Origin: Actinomycetota bacterium
Lineage (GTDB): Bacteria; Actinomycetota; Thermoleophilia; BMS3ABIN01
Reading direction: 5' to 3'
DNA length: 64,000 nucleotides
Assembly (NCBI GenBank): GCA_023382335.1
Contig: JAMCPM010000007.1
Coordinates: forward strand, 1-64,000
Both the position numbers and the translations under genes were made by a program. How positions within the stretch are numbered: the first letter of the stretch is position 1; each line of letters opens with the position of its first letter. Positions 28,361-63,275 of the stretch are shown one piece after another. Below the pieces are notes generated by a model that did no database searches, was not told where the DNA came from, and worked only from the letters and a program-made list of their open reading frames with translations.

Positions 28361-28394
28361 CTTGCGTAAGTACTACTGAGCCTATCTATCACCA

Positions 28395-28514
28395 CATCTT
28401 CCAGACCTATATGGTCTGCAGGAGTTGGCACCTTGCTGGCACTGGATTCCTTTGGGAATCGTGCCGCAGGTTGCCGAGGCTTCAAAGGGCCAGTCCCTCC
28501 ACCTCTCGGGATGC
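28395..28514 (-). promoter_or_regulatory. SAM-I (S-box) riboswitch aptamer
   Basis: The minus strand reads CCCGAGAGGTGGAGGGACTG, then GCCCTTTGAAGCCTCGGCAA and, later, AAGGTGCCAACTCCTGCAGA. These are the conserved SAM-I core segments: K-turn, J1/2, P2 and P3 with the J3/4 A-rich joint. The P1 arms are GCATC (28514 side) and GATG(T) (28395 side). It lies upstream of the threonine-synthase-like gene and the sulfur-carrier gene, so high SAM should switch both off. SAM-I riboswitches normally control methionine, cysteine and SAM synthesis or transport. Confidence 0.93.
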
Positions 28515-28545
28515 GAAAAACGCGTTCCTGGTTATAGCCTTAGGA

Positions 28546-56997: not shown

Positions 56998-57267
56998 ATG
57001 GCAATCGATGCCAAGGCCAGGACCCAGCCGGTCAGGGCCAGGATTCTCACCGATGAGTACGAGATCGAGGGCAACGTACACATCAAACCGGGTGTCTACC
57101 GCGGACGCGTTTCGGACATTCTCAATGCTCCGGAAGTGGAATTCATCCCGGTGACCCAGGCAAAATGCACCAGCCGCGCCTCAGCGGACTCCAAACCGGT
57201 CAGTACCGACTGCACCATCGTCCAGGTGCGCACGATCAAGATGGTCTTTCCGTTCGAGGACTCATAA
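56998..57267 (+). CDS. Small conserved-looking protein of unknown function
   Basis: ATG 56998 has GGGAGGAGG upstream at good spacing; GTG 56989 falls in that site and is less likely. The 89-residue protein reads RARILTDEYEIEGNVHIKPG, YRGRVSDILNAPEVEFIPVT, then KMVFPFEDS. This pattern resembles short beta-rich domains found as a standalone protein or within chemotaxis-like proteins in related bacteria. I cannot name the family with confidence. TTGACA at 56912 may be part of its promoter. Confidence 0.65.
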   Translation: MAIDAKARTQPVRARILTDEYEIEGNVHIKPGVYRGRVSDILNAPEVEFIPVTQAKCTSRASADSKPVSTDCTIVQVRTIKMVFPFEDS

Positions 57268-57322: not shown

Positions 57323-57375
57323 ACCCTTGGCGCAAGCCGTTTTGCCACCGTTTTCAGGCGATTGGCTTTGTCCAT

Positions 57376-57409
57376 ATTGTACAAGTGGAAGGTTAATTTA
57401 TTGTACAAT
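57376..57409. promoter_or_regulatory. Paired TTGTACAA palindromes upstream of the PucR-family gene
   Basis: ATTGTACAA at 57376-57384 and ATTGTACAAT at 57400-57409, 24 bases apart, with a further TGTACA at 57478-57483. The second site is followed by TGGATAAAATAA, and that sequence also occurs in the region before the glutamate-synthase genes. Such a repeated palindrome is what a dimeric regulator would bind; which protein binds is unknown. Confidence 0.55.
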
Positions 57410-57532
57410 TGGATAAAATAATCGTATGGAAAAACGCATATTATTTATGCAGGTAACAGAGAAACGGTTCCGCTATTTGTACAGCGGGACCGGCGGACCT
57501 CAAGCATCTTACCTGCTGCGAAAGGAAAAACG

Positions 57533-59215
57533 GTGGCGCTGCGCGTAGCGGAAATCCTGAAATTACCGATCCTGGCCGACGCCAGGGTGCTGGCTGGCGA
57601 GAAGGGGCTGGACCGCGAGGTCTCGCAGGTGACTGTAGGCGAGGTCCCCGACATCGGCGACTGGCTCACCGGCGGCGAGCTGGTCCTCTCCACATTCTTT
57701 GCCGTTGAGACCACACCCGAGGCCCAGGTCGAATTCACCCGCAAGATCGTCAAGGCCGGCGCCGCGGGCCTGCTGGTCAAACCCGGGCGCTTCATCGAAG
57801 AGGTCAGCCCGGCGATCCTCGAGCTCGGCCGCAAGCATGACTTCCCCATCGTCGAGGTTCCTCCCGAAGTTCGCTGGACGCACATCACCGCCGAGATCTC
57901 AGAGCAGATCGTCGGCGAGCACCTGGCGCTGTTGCGCCGCTCCCAGGACATCCATCACCGGCTGCTCGAGGTCGTCATCGACGGCGGCAGCTGGAAGTCG
58001 ATCGCGGAGACCACCTCCGAGCTGATCGGACGCCCGGTCTTGCTGGAGAATTCCTTTTCCGAGGTGCTCTCGGAATCGGCGCCGGCGGAGGATGACCCGA
58101 AGCTGGTCGCCGAGTTCGACGAGCTGCGCAAGGCGGCAGGAGCCAACGGGCGCGCCCGCGCGGCCAGTAGCGCCGAGCGCTACAACCGCACGCCGCTGAA
58201 AAAGAAGACGCAGTTTCCCGCCATGGTGACCGTGCCCATCATCGTCAGCCGCGACGTCCTTGGCTATGTATCGAGTTTTGAACGTGACTCCGAGCTCAAC
58301 GAGCTCGACCTCACCGCGCTGGAGAGCGCCGCCACCGTGGCCGCGGTCGAGATGGGCCGGGAGCTGACCCGGATGGAGGCCGAGACCCGCCTGCGCGGCG
58401 ATTTCGTCGACGACCTGCTGGCCGACGAGTTCGACGGCGGGCCGACGATGCTGCAGCGCGCGAGCTTCCTGGGCGGCGACCTGAGCCAGGGATGCCTCTG
58501 CCTAATCGCCGACATCGATTCCTTCGGTGACCACGTGCGGGACAAAAAATTGACCGAGCCCGAAGTCCAGCAGATCAAGAACCGCTTCTTCAGCGGTGTC
58601 AAGCAGGAGATCCTCTCGCATCATCAGCACGCGCTGCTGACGCCCAAGAGCGACAACGTCATCGCCTTCCTGCCGCCGCTCAAGGATGGGGATGCCAAGC
58701 TCATGTCTATCGCTAGGTCAACGGCCCTGCGCATCCGCCAGAGCTGCGCCGAGCTGCTGCCGGGGCTGACGGTGTCGATCGGCATCGGCCGCTTCCACGG
58801 GGACCCGCTGGAGACCAGGCGCGCCTACCGCGAGGCGCAGTCAGCGCTGCAGGTGAGCCAGAGGCTGGGGGAGACCGGCGCCATCGCCAGTTTCGACGAC
58901 ATGGGCATCTACAAACTCTTGCTGGGCGCGCTGGAGGAAGACCCGGAAGAGGTGCGCAACTTCTACCAGGAGACCATCGCCCGCATCGAGGATTACGACA
59001 AGCAGCACAATACCGACCTGGTCGGCACGCTCGAGGCTTACCTCGCCAACAACCGCAGCGTCGCCGCCACCGCCGAGGCGCTCTTCACGCACCGGCACAC
59101 GATCCGCTACCGCCTGGGCCGCATCAACGACCTCACCGGCCTGGATGTGCACCGCAGCGAGGACCAGGAAAAGCTCGGTTTCGGGCTCAAGGTCATGCGC
59201 CTGTTGCGTCGCTGA
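57533..59215 (+). CDS. PucR/CdaR-family transcription regulator
   Basis: The 560-residue protein has an N-terminal PucR domain (MALRVAEILKLPILADARVL, TGGELVLSTFF), a middle GAF-like region (about 130-280), a GGDEF-like CdaR middle (about 285-430) and a C-terminal HTH_30 (TLEAYLANNRSVAATAEALF, THRHTIRYRLGRI). PucR relatives activate purine, allantoin or other nitrogen-source genes in response to a ligand. It starts at GTG 57533 with AAAGGAAAAA upstream. Palindromic sites in its own promoter and the same palindrome before the glutamate-synthase genes hint at a nitrogen role. Confidence 0.9.
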   Translation: MALRVAEILKLPILADARVLAGEKGLDREVSQVTVGEVPDIGDWLTGGELVLSTFFAVETTPEAQVEFTRKIVKAGAAGLLVKPGRFIEEVSPAILELGRKHDFPIVEVPPEVRWTHITAEISEQIVGEHLALLRRSQDIHHRLLEVVIDGGSWKSIAETTSELIGRPVLLENSFSEVLSESAPAEDDPKLVAEFDELRKAAGANGRARAASSAERYNRTPLKKKTQFPAMVTVPIIVSRDVLGYVSSFERDSELNELDLTALESAATVAAVEMGRELTRMEAETRLRGDFVDDLLADEFDGGPTMLQRASFLGGDLSQGCLCLIADIDSFGDHVRDKKLTEPEVQQIKNRFFSGVKQEILSHHQHALLTPKSDNVIAFLPPLKDGDAKLMSIARSTALRIRQSCAELLPGLTVSIGIGRFHGDPLETRRAYREAQSALQVSQRLGETGAIASFDDMGIYKLLLGALEEDPEEVRNFYQETIARIEDYDKQHNTDLVGTLEAYLANNRSVAATAEALFTHRHTIRYRLGRINDLTGLDVHRSEDQEKLGFGLKVMRLLRR

Positions 59216-59502
59216 CAGACGCTGGCACCGGCATTTTGCAGGCGCTAGCCAGAACTCCCCATCCGGTCTCATTTCAGAGTATTAACGGATTTAGCCTTCA
59301 GTACGCACCCGTATCCTAATTTTATGAGGGTCATTGGCCTTTTTAGCTATTAATGTTTAAACGAGATTTTAGCGGTTATCAAAATATAAGTGAGTTTCCT
59401 TATTTGATGAGACGGGAGGTTTTATGGACGCAAATCATCTCACTAGAGTACACGGGTGGATCTAGTCTGAGAAAAACGATGAGGATGAAGGAGATCACGG
59501 CC

Positions 59503-61755
59503 ATGATGAAACTCAAACTTGCATTTAGTTTTGGGCTTGTGGTGCTATTGCTGGTAGCAACGGCCGGTACGTACGCTCTGGCAAAGAAGCCCGCCCCGGT
59601 AGGTCCCGTCCAGTTTCCCGGAAACAAAATCCAGCAGTTTGCGCAGCCACTATCGACTCTGGATGCAGCCGGTGGAACAATACAAACCATCCTCGACAAT
59701 GGAACCGAGATTCCAATGAGGATGGTGGAGTTGCGGGCTAATATGTTGCCGCCATCATTCGTCCCGGCGAATGGCCTGCCATACGCGGGCACGGCGGTCT
59801 TTGGTTACCGGGCCAGCGCAGCGCCTGTTGCTCCGTTAACCGCCGTTGATACTTACGTCAATCCGGTCATAGTTGCCTCACGGGGAACACCGACCACGAT
59901 ACGGTACATCAACAACCTGACCACCAATGTCATCAACTGGAGGGCCTGGACCGACGCGAGTCTGCATTCTGCATTCCATCAGGCGGCGGACCAGGGGATG
60001 CCCATATCTGGCGATACAAACCACTACCAGGGACCGGTCCTGGCTGTGCCTCACCTTCATGGTGGTGAGGTCCCGGCGGTTATTGATGGTGGGCCGGAAG
60101 CCTGGTTTGCCAGTAACGTACCGGGACCGGACACGGTAACACCCTACAAGACCCAGGGTCCCGCTTACTATTCCAAGGCCGGAGCGGCTTCCAACGAAGC
60201 TATTTACTCCTATCCTAATAACCAGGAGGCAGCCCCTCTCTGGTTCCATGACCATCTGCTGGGTGGTACGCGCCTCAACGCCACCTTCGCCGGTCTCGCC
60301 GGTGGTTACGCTCTTACTGACCCGGGTCTGACGTTGCCGACCGGGCTGTTGCCGGTCGGTCTGGACACAAATGGCAACGGCGCGATGGATGCCGCAAACG
60401 AAGTGGTGACGCCACTGGTTATCCAGGACCGCATGTTCGACACAAACGGCGAGTTGTTCTTCCCCAACGTTGGGATCAATCCGGAACATCCCTACTGGGT
60501 ACCGGAATTCGTCGGCGATACGATCGTTGTCAACGGCAAGGCCTGGCCGTATCATAATGTAGACCAGCAGCGCTACCGCTTCTACCTGATTAACGGTTCC
60601 AACTCACGCCCCTATGATATGTTCCTGCAAGACCAGACCACCGGAGGCAAAGGTCCTGGAATGTGGGTCATCTCTACAGATGGCGGCTACCTGGACAATC
60701 CGGTTTACATTAACCCGAACGCCACCCAGGCGCAGATAAAGGCGGGTGCACAGAAGAGCCTGATGATGATGCCAGGCGAGCGCTACGAGGTCATCATCGA
60801 CTTCGCCGGAGTGCCAGCCGGGACGAACCTGATACTGCGCAACACCGCGCCAACGGTCATGGGCAATCCCAAGGCCAGCCTCGACGGGCGCATCATGCAG
60901 TTCCGGGTATCCGGCACCGTACCCGCAGGTGGCGACAAGAGCTATAATCCGGCTACTTCTCTCACGCCGTTACGCGCCGGCGCGCCTATCGTCCGCTTGC
61001 CGGGAACGCCCGGTGGCCCCGCCATCAGCCCTGCGACCGTGAACACGACCCGTCTGCTTACCTTGAACGAAGTGGCTGGAGCCGGGGGCCCGCTTGAGGC
61101 ATTGGTCAACAACTCCAAGTGGAGCGGTCTGCGTCCCGATATGACTCCGATACCCGGGTCAACGCTGATGAATGGCACCAACCAGGGCGCCTTCAGCTTC
61201 CAGGGCAACTACATTACGGAGACGCCCAACGAGGGCAATACGGAGGTCTGGGAAATCGTCAACCTGACGGCTGACTCCCATCCCATCCACCTCCACGCGG
61301 TACAGTTCCAGCTGATAGACCGTCAGCCGATCAATGCAAAGGGCTACGCGGCAATATACGGCGCGTCATTCCCAGGTGGACTCTATGTCGCTGGTAACGG
61401 TCCTCCTGGCGCCTACAATACTCCCAACGCAGCAGGAGCTATTGGGGGCAATCCTGACGTGACGCCGTTCCTGCTCGGAGCGCCTCTGGCGCCACTGCCT
61501 AATGAGGCAGGCTGGAAAGACACGGTCATCATGCGCCCGGGCGAAAGGACACGCATTGCCGTGCGCTGGGCGCCACAAGACACTGCTTCAGGAGTTACGG
61601 GCAGCTTCACCTTCACTCCCAACATCCTGAACGGAGTCTATGTCTGGCACTGCCACATCACCGACCACGAAGATAACGAGATGATGAGGCCTGACATGAT
61701 AATGCCGAACACGGTAGAAACAGCCAGGAGCTTCAAGCAAGGCATAAACTACTAG
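59503..61755 (+). CDS. Secreted multicopper oxidase (CotA/bilirubin-oxidase-like)
   Basis: ATG 59503 is chosen because AAGGAG lies nine bases upstream and a signal peptide follows at once (LAFSFGLVVLLLVATAGTYA); the frame is open further up. The 750-residue product has the four His clusters of the type 1, 2 and 3 copper sites: HLHGG, LWFHDHLLGG, SHPIHLHAVQFQ and VWHCHITDHEDNEMM. The cysteine plus the axial Met of the T1 site are in the last motif. Family members oxidise phenols, bilirubin, metals (Mn(II), Cu(I), Fe(II)) or dyes with O2. The substrate is unknown; its spot next to iron and nitrogen genes does not settle it. Confidence 0.92.
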   Translation: MMKLKLAFSFGLVVLLLVATAGTYALAKKPAPVGPVQFPGNKIQQFAQPLSTLDAAGGTIQTILDNGTEIPMRMVELRANMLPPSFVPANGLPYAGTAVFGYRASAAPVAPLTAVDTYVNPVIVASRGTPTTIRYINNLTTNVINWRAWTDASLHSAFHQAADQGMPISGDTNHYQGPVLAVPHLHGGEVPAVIDGGPEAWFASNVPGPDTVTPYKTQGPAYYSKAGAASNEAIYSYPNNQEAAPLWFHDHLLGGTRLNATFAGLAGGYALTDPGLTLPTGLLPVGLDTNGNGAMDAANEVVTPLVIQDRMFDTNGELFFPNVGINPEHPYWVPEFVGDTIVVNGKAWPYHNVDQQRYRFYLINGSNSRPYDMFLQDQTTGGKGPGMWVISTDGGYLDNPVYINPNATQAQIKAGAQKSLMMMPGERYEVIIDFAGVPAGTNLILRNTAPTVMGNPKASLDGRIMQFRVSGTVPAGGDKSYNPATSLTPLRAGAPIVRLPGTPGGPAISPATVNTTRLLTLNEVAGAGGPLEALVNNSKWSGLRPDMTPIPGSTLMNGTNQGAFSFQGNYITETPNEGNTEVWEIVNLTADSHPIHLHAVQFQLIDRQPINAKGYAAIYGASFPGGLYVAGNGPPGAYNTPNAAGAIGGNPDVTPFLLGAPLAPLPNEAGWKDTVIMRPGERTRIAVRWAPQDTASGVTGSFTFTPNILNGVYVWHCHITDHEDNEMMRPDMIMPNTVETARSFKQGINY

Positions 61756-61775
61756 GCAACAATACAAATGAGGCC

Positions 61776-61810
61776 AAAGAGGGGGCCGCCGCAAGGCGGC
61801 CCCCTCTTTT
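61776..61810 (+). terminator. Strong terminator after the multicopper oxidase
   Basis: AAAGAGGGGGCCGCC (61776-61790) pairs with GGCGGCCCCCTCTTTT (61795-61810) around a GCAA tetraloop, a GNRA loop. The second arm ends in a short T run. It lies 20 bases after the stop codon. Confidence 0.88.
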
Positions 61811-61924
61811 CCGGTGCGTTCGGCAGGGCGCACTCACCTGGATGTGATATTCCATCACCCCCGGCACCGGCACCGGCACGCACATCCTCGCGCCAGCTTC
61901 TCAATCCCCCGAGCAGCGCTGTGT

Positions 61925-62016
61925 CTGTACAACTGCATAACCTGGTCCAGCTTTACTTTATCCAGCGGGATAAAATAACCGCCCTCACCCAGAGCTATAC
62001 TCCAATTGTACAAGTG
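61925..62016. promoter_or_regulatory. Operator-like region before the glutamate-synthase genes
   Basis: CTGTACAAC at 61925-61933, TTTATCC (61957-61963) and GGATAAA (61968-61974) as a 7-base inverted repeat, then AATTGTACAAGTG at 62004-62016. The last is, on the other strand, almost the same as the sites at 57376-57409. GGATAAAATAA occurs in both places. The gene-free stretch 61756-62156 therefore holds a terminator and a likely regulated promoter. Confidence 0.55.
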
Positions 62017-62156
62017 TCTGCGCTGGCAAAGGATTTGGAGTCAATACCGAGGGGGTTGAGGCAGCCAATACCTCCGCCTTTAATGTATAATACTCCCCGC
62101 GCCATTTCCCGGTGTCTGAACCGAAACTGACTAAGATTTTACCGAGGCTTGCAACT

Positions 62157-63275
62157 ATGTGCCGACTTAGCGCCATCACATCAGCTGAATATTTTTCTCC
62201 CATGGAGAACGTCATGGCCCTCAACACCATGAAGGAAGGCCACGACGGCTCCGGTCTGGGCCTGGTCCTGCGCGATCTCGGCGGCGACTTCAAGGACCTC
62301 AAGCAGTATCCCATCCTTTCGGGAATCGCCTCGAGCGAGGGCCTGGCCGAACTGGACACGTTCATGTCCGGCCTTGGTTTCAGGGAAGTCCATTTCTGGC
62401 AGCCGGATATCGACGACAAGGCGCCGGAGCCCGAGCTGGGCCGCCGCGACCACTATTTCGCCAAGGCCTACGAGTACCCGGTCGACATGCAGAAGCGCCC
62501 GCAGGCGGAGAAGGAAGAGCTGCTGCTCGACGCGCGCCTGGCGCTGCGCGAGCTCGGCGAGGAGGACGAGTCGATCTTCGTCTTTTCGTTCTATCCCGAC
62601 ACGGTGACCTTAAAGGAAGTGGGGGACCCGCTGGAGCTCGGGAGATTCTTCCGGCTCGATGACGGCAAGCTCAAGGCCAGGATCATCCTCGCCCAGGGCC
62701 GCCAGAACACCAACTATGACATCTATCTGTACGCCTGCCACCCGTTCTTCCTGCAGGGGTACTGCACCATGACCAACGGCGAGAACACCGCTTTCGTGCC
62801 GATCATGGAATTCCTGACCAGCCGCGGTTTTCCCGGCTACATGGGTTACAATTCCGACTCGGAGGTCTTCGCCCACATCCTGCACTACACGCAGCGGCAG
62901 CTGGGCTATCCTTTGACATATTACAAGGATGTGATAACACCTCTGGCCGAGAAGGAGATCGACGGGCGCAAGGACGCCGAGGCGCTGCGGCTTATCCGCC
63001 GCTCGCTGCGGCCGCTGTGCATCGACGGCCCCAACTGCGTCATCGGCTTCGCGCCCGACGGCACGGTCTTCATGGTGCAGGACGCCAAGAAGCTCAGGCC
63101 CGGCATCGTCGGCGGCGTGCCCGGCAAGTACGCGCTAATGAGCGAGGAGTGCGGCCTCGACGAAGCCGTGCCCAGGCGCGACAAGACCGAGGATTTCTCG
63201 CCCATGAAGTACGATATGGCGATCATCAAACCCGGCGCCAGCGAGATGGTCCGCTGGAGCCAGCTAACCCCCTAG
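62157..63275 (+). CDS. Glutamine amidotransferase class II subunit of a split (archaeal-type) glutamate synthase
   Basis: ATG 62157 is chosen because the next codon is Cys (MCRLSAITSAEYFSPM), giving the N-terminal nucleophile of class II amidotransferases after Met removal, and GAGG lies upstream; the frame is open to 62112. The 372-residue protein has EGHDGSGLGLVLRDLGG and a central GYCTMTNGENTAF, and ends KYDMAIIKPGASEMVRW. It hydrolyses glutamine to supply ammonia to the next subunit. The following gene encodes ferredoxin-like clusters and the start of the FMN part, so this is the GltB domain-1 protein of a split GOGAT. Confidence 0.88.
   Translation: MCRLSAITSAEYFSPMENVMALNTMKEGHDGSGLGLVLRDLGGDFKDLKQYPILSGIASSEGLAELDTFMSGLGFREVHFWQPDIDDKAPEPELGRRDHYFAKAYEYPVDMQKRPQAEKEELLLDARLALRELGEEDESIFVFSFYPDTVTLKEVGDPLELGRFFRLDDGKLKARIILAQGRQNTNYDIYLYACHPFFLQGYCTMTNGENTAFVPIMEFLTSRGFPGYMGYNSDSEVFAHILHYTQRQLGYPLTYYKDVITPLAEKEIDGRKDAEALRLIRRSLRPLCIDGPNCVIGFAPDGTVFMVQDAKKLRPGIVGGVPGKYALMSEECGLDEAVPRRDKTEDFSPMKYDMAIIKPGASEMVRWSQLTP

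Follow-up and report, generated by a model that had tools for sequence, protein, structure and literature searches.

Sequence elements shared by the pucR and gltB upstream regions

In a 64,000-nucleotide stretch of DNA from an Actinomycetota bacterium (the window), the word TTGTACAA occurs before a gene for a PucR-type regulator (pucR) and before the gene for the glutamine amidotransferase part of a split glutamate synthase (gltB). Is this a mark of common regulation, and if so, which genes share it and which protein binds it? The original prediction was that one regulator, perhaps the PucR-like protein, links purine/nitrogen status to glutamate synthesis.

In the window, TTGTACAA starts at 57377, 57401 and 62006 only, three copies compared with 0.20 expected, and 1 of 100 shuffled windows reached that number. 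The predicted arrangement, two copies before the regulator gene and one before the amidotransferase gene, thus holds at these coordinates. TGTACA occurs five times (57378, 57402, 57478, 61926 and 62007). A total of five is ordinary for the window (3.8 expected), but its clustering is not: all five copies lie in the intergenic regions upstream of pucR and gltB, as had been noticed, with the copy at 57478 then overlooked. GGATAAAATAA is likewise common to both regions, as proposed, at 57411–57421 before pucR and 61967–61977 before gltB. The genome-wide search suggested with the prediction, like all genome-wide counts here a pattern search, found six copies of TTGTACAA in the 2,452,407 bases of the genome, three of them in the two window regions. 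The others lie upstream of an ammonium transporter gene (by ∼97 bp) and of mraZ, and inside an ABC-transporter gene. TTGTACAA is therefore real as a shared element; taken by itself, however, it understates the signal, since it is part of a larger 16-bp operator.

A 16-bp operator at nitrogen assimilation genes

On sequence comparison, the full element is a 16-bp palindrome, TTRTMC-N4-GKAYAA, with TTGTAC...GTACAA and TTATCC...GGATAA as its extremes. Before pucR, a single operator, TTGTAC-AATT-GGATAA (57401–57416), is made up of TTGTACAA and the GGATAA next to it; before the amidotransferase gene, GGATAA belongs to another, TTATCC-AGCG-GGATAA (61958–61973). The pucR orthologues of the same family (68–96% identity) mostly have two TGTACA-like sites with a 24 bp step, flanked by a TTTATCC-like sequence on the upstream side and a GGATAAA-like one downstream.

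Exact matches to TTRTMC-N4-GKAYAA number five in 2.45 Mb, at pucR, gltB, glnA, amt-glnB and inside one coding sequence, compared with none for the reversed pattern. The TTATCC-N4-GGATAA form has two exact copies in the genome, in the glutamate synthase and amt regions. With one mismatch allowed, the genome-wide number (30) equals that of the control (32). Across 19 genomes there were 50 exact matches versus 14 for the reversed pattern. By comparison of coordinates, at least 33 of these 50 directly precede a pucR, gltB, glnA or amt/PII gene, and the remainder is about the number given by the control. The match within coding sequence (C11:69424) was dropped, as was G002:C84:11344, the same sequence in a relative.

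We also analyzed 59 upstream regions from 17 genomes (pucR 17, gltB 17, amt 9, glnA 16). With a 4-bp spacer they contain 28 exact sites, or 86 if one mismatch is tolerated, while any other spacer gave at most 3 and 10, respectively, and shuffled regions gave 0.03 and 0.55. A site scoring ≥8 was present in 57 of the 59 regions versus 3.5 in shuffles; the consensus was derived from these same family f1 regions, and the site counts are not independent of it. For this reason more weight is carried by the spacer series and the genome-wide controls, which together with data from other families (family f5 and genomes G151 and G361, below) provide independent support. Distances between sites peak at 32–33 bp (31 of the 97 pairs lying 16–80 bp apart). 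The 24-bp step between the two TTGTACAA copies was rejected as a signal in its own right, as it follows from operators ∼32–33 bp apart. A DnaA-like box was considered for TTATCC and set aside: the TTATCC pairs form palindromes and are located at nitrogen genes.

Beyond the window, glnA of this genome is preceded by a row of three sites, and a third amt gene, followed by a PII gene, has a one-mismatch copy, TTATCCCCGCGTACAG, ∼112 bp before its start. In the g3 genomes glnA has weak sites only. The regulon would consist of ammonium uptake, PII, glutamine synthetase, glutamate synthase and pucR itself, with one operator common to all. We regard the operator and its regulon as almost certainly real. 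No purine gene was found with an exact operator site; in this genome the exact sites are at genes for nitrogen assimilation or within a coding sequence. The predicted link to purine status consequently has no support, the word having come only from the name of the Pfam family.

Organization of the two upstream regions

The distal operator of pucR, O1 (TTGTCC-ATATT-GTACAA, 57368–57384), holds the first TTGTACAA. Its spacer is 5 bp in this genome and 4 bp in G004, G005, G008, G015 and G017. The proximal operator O2 (57401–57416) matches the consensus exactly and has the top score in the window, 24.1. A predicted −10 box, TATTAT (57439–57444, forward strand), lies 38 bp from the start of O2. A weak site in the leader, TTGTACAGCGGGACCG (57477–57492, score 8.6), has counterparts at the same place in relatives, for example TTATCCAGCGGTACAG in G004. 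The pucR gene follows on the forward strand with a GTG start (57533–59215). Just upstream of pucR ends a small DUF6812 gene (56998–57267, forward strand), and the end of its coding sequence (KTIRMVFPFEDS-like) is recognizable upstream of pucR in many members of the family.

The gltB region has a distal operator, CTGTAC-AACT-GCATAA (61925–61940, score 14.1), which contains CTGTACAAC of the original prediction, and 33 bp from it the proximal operator at 61958–61973. A predicted −10 box, TATACT (61996–62001, forward strand), again lies 38 bp from the operator start and is kept in relatives. A third site, TACTCC-AATT-GTACAA (61998–62013, score 12.5), holds the third TTGTACAA; it is conserved and overlaps the −10 box and the presumed transcription start, and could possibly be a negative site for gltB. 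Further downstream GTATAAT (62085–62091) is conserved in many relatives. Its TATAAT (62086–62091, forward strand) has no operator at the usual distance, and the element is probably a second gltB promoter. gltB itself (62157–63275, forward strand) starts MCRLSAITS... and has no Pfam match. It was identified from its N-terminal cysteine and from gene order, with an FMN/ferredoxin-domain gene and a GXGXG/oxidoreductase gene downstream. A multicopper oxidase gene (59353–61755, forward strand) lies between pucR and the amidotransferase gene, which are adjacent in most relatives. A search of Rfam found no RNA element in either upstream region; the sole match in the window is a SAM riboswitch (S box) at 28391–28517 on the reverse strand (86.4 bits).

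Promoter geometry

Across the exact sites, −10-like hexamers form a sharp peak at an offset of 38 bp, counted from where the site begins (15 of 28 sites). At amt-glnB of this genome no −10 box was seen at that offset. In family f5, TATAAT or TATACT is found at offset 37 in six pucR promoters. If the predicted transcription start is assumed to lie ∼7 bp downstream of the −10 box, the proximal operator would occupy about −50 to −35. A clear −35 box is absent. TTGTAC was considered as a −35 box and rejected, there being no −10 box at the right spacing. The natural reading of an operator that adjoins or overlaps the −35 region at a fixed distance from the −10 box would be class II activation. Operators 32–33 bp apart are separated by three helical turns and so lie on the same face of the DNA.

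The PucR-type protein

The 560-aa product of pucR has an N-terminal PucR domain (PF07905, 121.6 bits versus a cut-off of 33.5), present in 20 of 20 aligned members, followed by a GAF-like region, a GGDEF-like domain (PF17853, 63 bits) and HTH_30 (PF13556, 70.8 bits), the last two also above cut-off. By these domains it is a member of the PucR family of transcription factors. It does not appear to be a PucR in the strict sense, that is, a protein in control of purine catabolism.

A profile comparison matches residues ∼128–284 to the CodY GAF domain (E about 3e-6), and their predicted fold also resembles it (2gx5, target TM about 0.66). CodY senses branched-chain amino acids and GTP, and by this analogy it is plausible that the GAF-like region is a metabolite sensor. 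The predicted fold of the C-terminal half resembles MabR and BAD_0249, with MabR (9f80) as the best match. In the structure model the individual domains are usable and their packing is poor (pTM 0.43).

Association of the operator with PucR in other genomes

The genome encodes one full PucR-type HTH protein; the other match, a partial one, falls within an NtrC-like sigma-54 protein. Close relatives with names are uncultured MAGs, carrying the labels Thermoleophilia, Gaiellales or Actinomycetes, and Bacterium BMS3Abin01. The amidotransferase gene comes immediately after pucR in most relatives from other genera and in some of the relatives within the genus.

More distant families provided a comparison independent of the consensus. 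In family f5, where PucR is 40–45% identical, pucR and amt are neighbors in at least 12 of the 13 genomes that have both. With a matrix trained on f1, 12 of 26 upstream regions of f5 scored ≥10, compared with 0.11 in shuffles and 1 with the reversed matrix; the f5 pucR genes of G042, G052 and G072 lack a site of their own. Two genomes outside the class extend the association. In G151, divergent pucR and amt are separated by a gap that contains two sites with a spacing of 32 bp. The gene order in G361 is pucR, amt, glnB, nadE (NAD synthetase), glnA, and glnA is preceded by an exact site. In genomes of family f4, which do not have such a PucR, three amt/glnA regions contained no site.

The operators are conserved, pucR neighbors gltB, amt, glnB or glnA, and operator and PucR recur together in other families. 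This co-occurrence makes the PucR-type protein very likely the one that binds the operator. It would probably act as an activator under nitrogen limitation. The part of the original prediction that a common regulator, probably the PucR-like protein, governs both pucR and glutamate synthase is thus strongly supported by sequence comparison; the part concerning purines fell away. Overall, we consider the best explanation to be an array of nitrogen assimilation operators with an autoregulated PucR-type activator, to which we assign a probability of about 0.8.

Such a system might work as follows. PucR dimers would occupy operators 32–33 bp apart, three helical turns and hence on the same face, and the proximal dimer (about −50 to −35) would contact RNA polymerase at promoters that have a −10 box and no recognizable −35 box. 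A nitrogen signal would be read by the PucR/GAF/GGDEF-like part and switch the activity of the protein, which would then activate the ammonium assimilation genes in class II fashion and regulate its own gene.

Alternative explanations

Might the palindromes be due to chance, or be a general feature of promoters or AT-rich intergenic DNA with no common regulator? The equal numbers of one-mismatch matches in the genome and its control, and the exact match inside a coding sequence, are what this explanation would lead one to expect. The excess of exact matches in the 19 genomes, their concentration on the same few genes, the exact 4-bp spacer and the −10 offset all argue against it, and for practical purposes it is already refuted. 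A more substantial alternative is that GlnR, AmtR, an NtrC-like regulator or some other protein binds the operator and that pucR is merely one of its targets. In Streptomyces and Mycobacterium, pucR-family genes are in fact targets of GlnR (PMC10704036, PMC3662644), and this genome encodes an NtrC/AtoC-like sigma-54 response regulator paired with its histidine kinase (L229 2–2273, G000:C6). However, boxes for GlnR, NtcA, NtrC and TnrA were not found in the four promoters of this genome, except for a single loose match of the GlnR type, 348 bp upstream of amt; the GlnR box GTnAC-n6-GnnAC is absent at pucR, gltB and glnA. Judged by the NtrC box and the −10 box, the promoters are also not of the NtrC/sigma-54 kind, to which a −10 box at fixed offset is ill suited. 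Since it is pucR and no other regulator that accompanies amt, glnB and glnA in unrelated neighborhoods, we consider binding by another protein quite improbable.

The remaining alternative accepts PucR as the binding protein and has it act as a repressor, or both ways, with the genes off when nitrogen is plentiful. Repression would fit the conserved site at 61998–62013, where the gltB −10 box and start region are overlapped, and PucR of B. subtilis is both activator and repressor (PMC7652997). On the other hand, the dominant operator precedes the −10 box by the fixed distance of class II activators, with no clear −35 box. Most PucR-type regulators characterized so far are activators, acting on catabolic or specialized genes, and some bind inverted repeats (PMC7652997). 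A repressor therefore seems unlikely, and activation by PucR is the reading we prefer.

Comparison with known regulators

Central nitrogen control is known to be exerted by a handful of regulators, NtrC, GlnR, TnrA, AmtR, NtcA and a few others. The one with the most similar task is GlnR of actinomycetes, an OmpR-family protein with amt, PII, glnA and glutamate synthase as targets (PMC10704036). It differs from PucR in protein family and in its binding site, a GTnAC-n6-GnnAC box compared with the inverted repeat found here, in which the half-sites have an 8-bp step. GabR of Corynebacterium glutamicum resembles the present protein in having PF07905 and a C-terminal HTH, and it activates gabTDP through a pair of inverted repeats located between −87 and −23, binding strongly only when it has both (PMC7652997). 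The present protein would thus operate in the manner of GabR while performing the task of GlnR. In contrast, GabR acts locally, on GABA use, has a 21-bp repeat and lacks a GGDEF-like domain, while the present protein has a GGDEF-like domain, a 16-bp operator and an ammonium assimilation regulon. CodY of Bacillus has the GAF domain that residues ∼128–284 match but differs in DNA-binding domain and operator. MabR (Rv2242) of Mycobacterium tuberculosis shares the C-terminal half, GGDEF-like domain and PucR-type HTH, but has a globin-like N-terminus and mycolic-acid targets (PMC11617747).

In the open-access papers searched we found no PucR-type protein described as a regulator of ammonium assimilation. 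On balance, we favor the view that ammonium assimilation in several deep actinobacterial lineages is under the control of a PucR-family master activator, in place of GlnR, AmtR or NtrC, with an operator not previously described and a CodY-like GAF region as candidate nitrogen sensor. If this is true, a new protein family joins the master regulators of nitrogen, uncultured Thermoleophilia-like lineages gain a nitrogen regulon, and the unassigned pucR genes beside amt in Actinobacteria gain a candidate function. The operator DNA as a probe and the 560-aa protein offer a direct test.

Additional operator-like sequences

The division cluster is headed by mraZ, and the copy of TTGTACAA before that gene (L006 1501–1508; G000:C20:43184) is not a full operator. 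An exact palindrome, TTATCCTGATGGATAA, is conserved in two genomes of the same genus, G001 and G003 (L135 1501–1516 and L134 1501–1516). None of the tested nitrogen genes lies near it in either genome, and the locus is possibly a further target or a product of chance. In the distant genome G235, an exact TTGTACAAATGTACAA is found 40 bp after pucR (L233 6789–6804). By eye, the sequence beyond it looks like what is left of the C-terminus of a PII protein (IRTG...), which would suggest that amt-glnB was once present there and has been lost.
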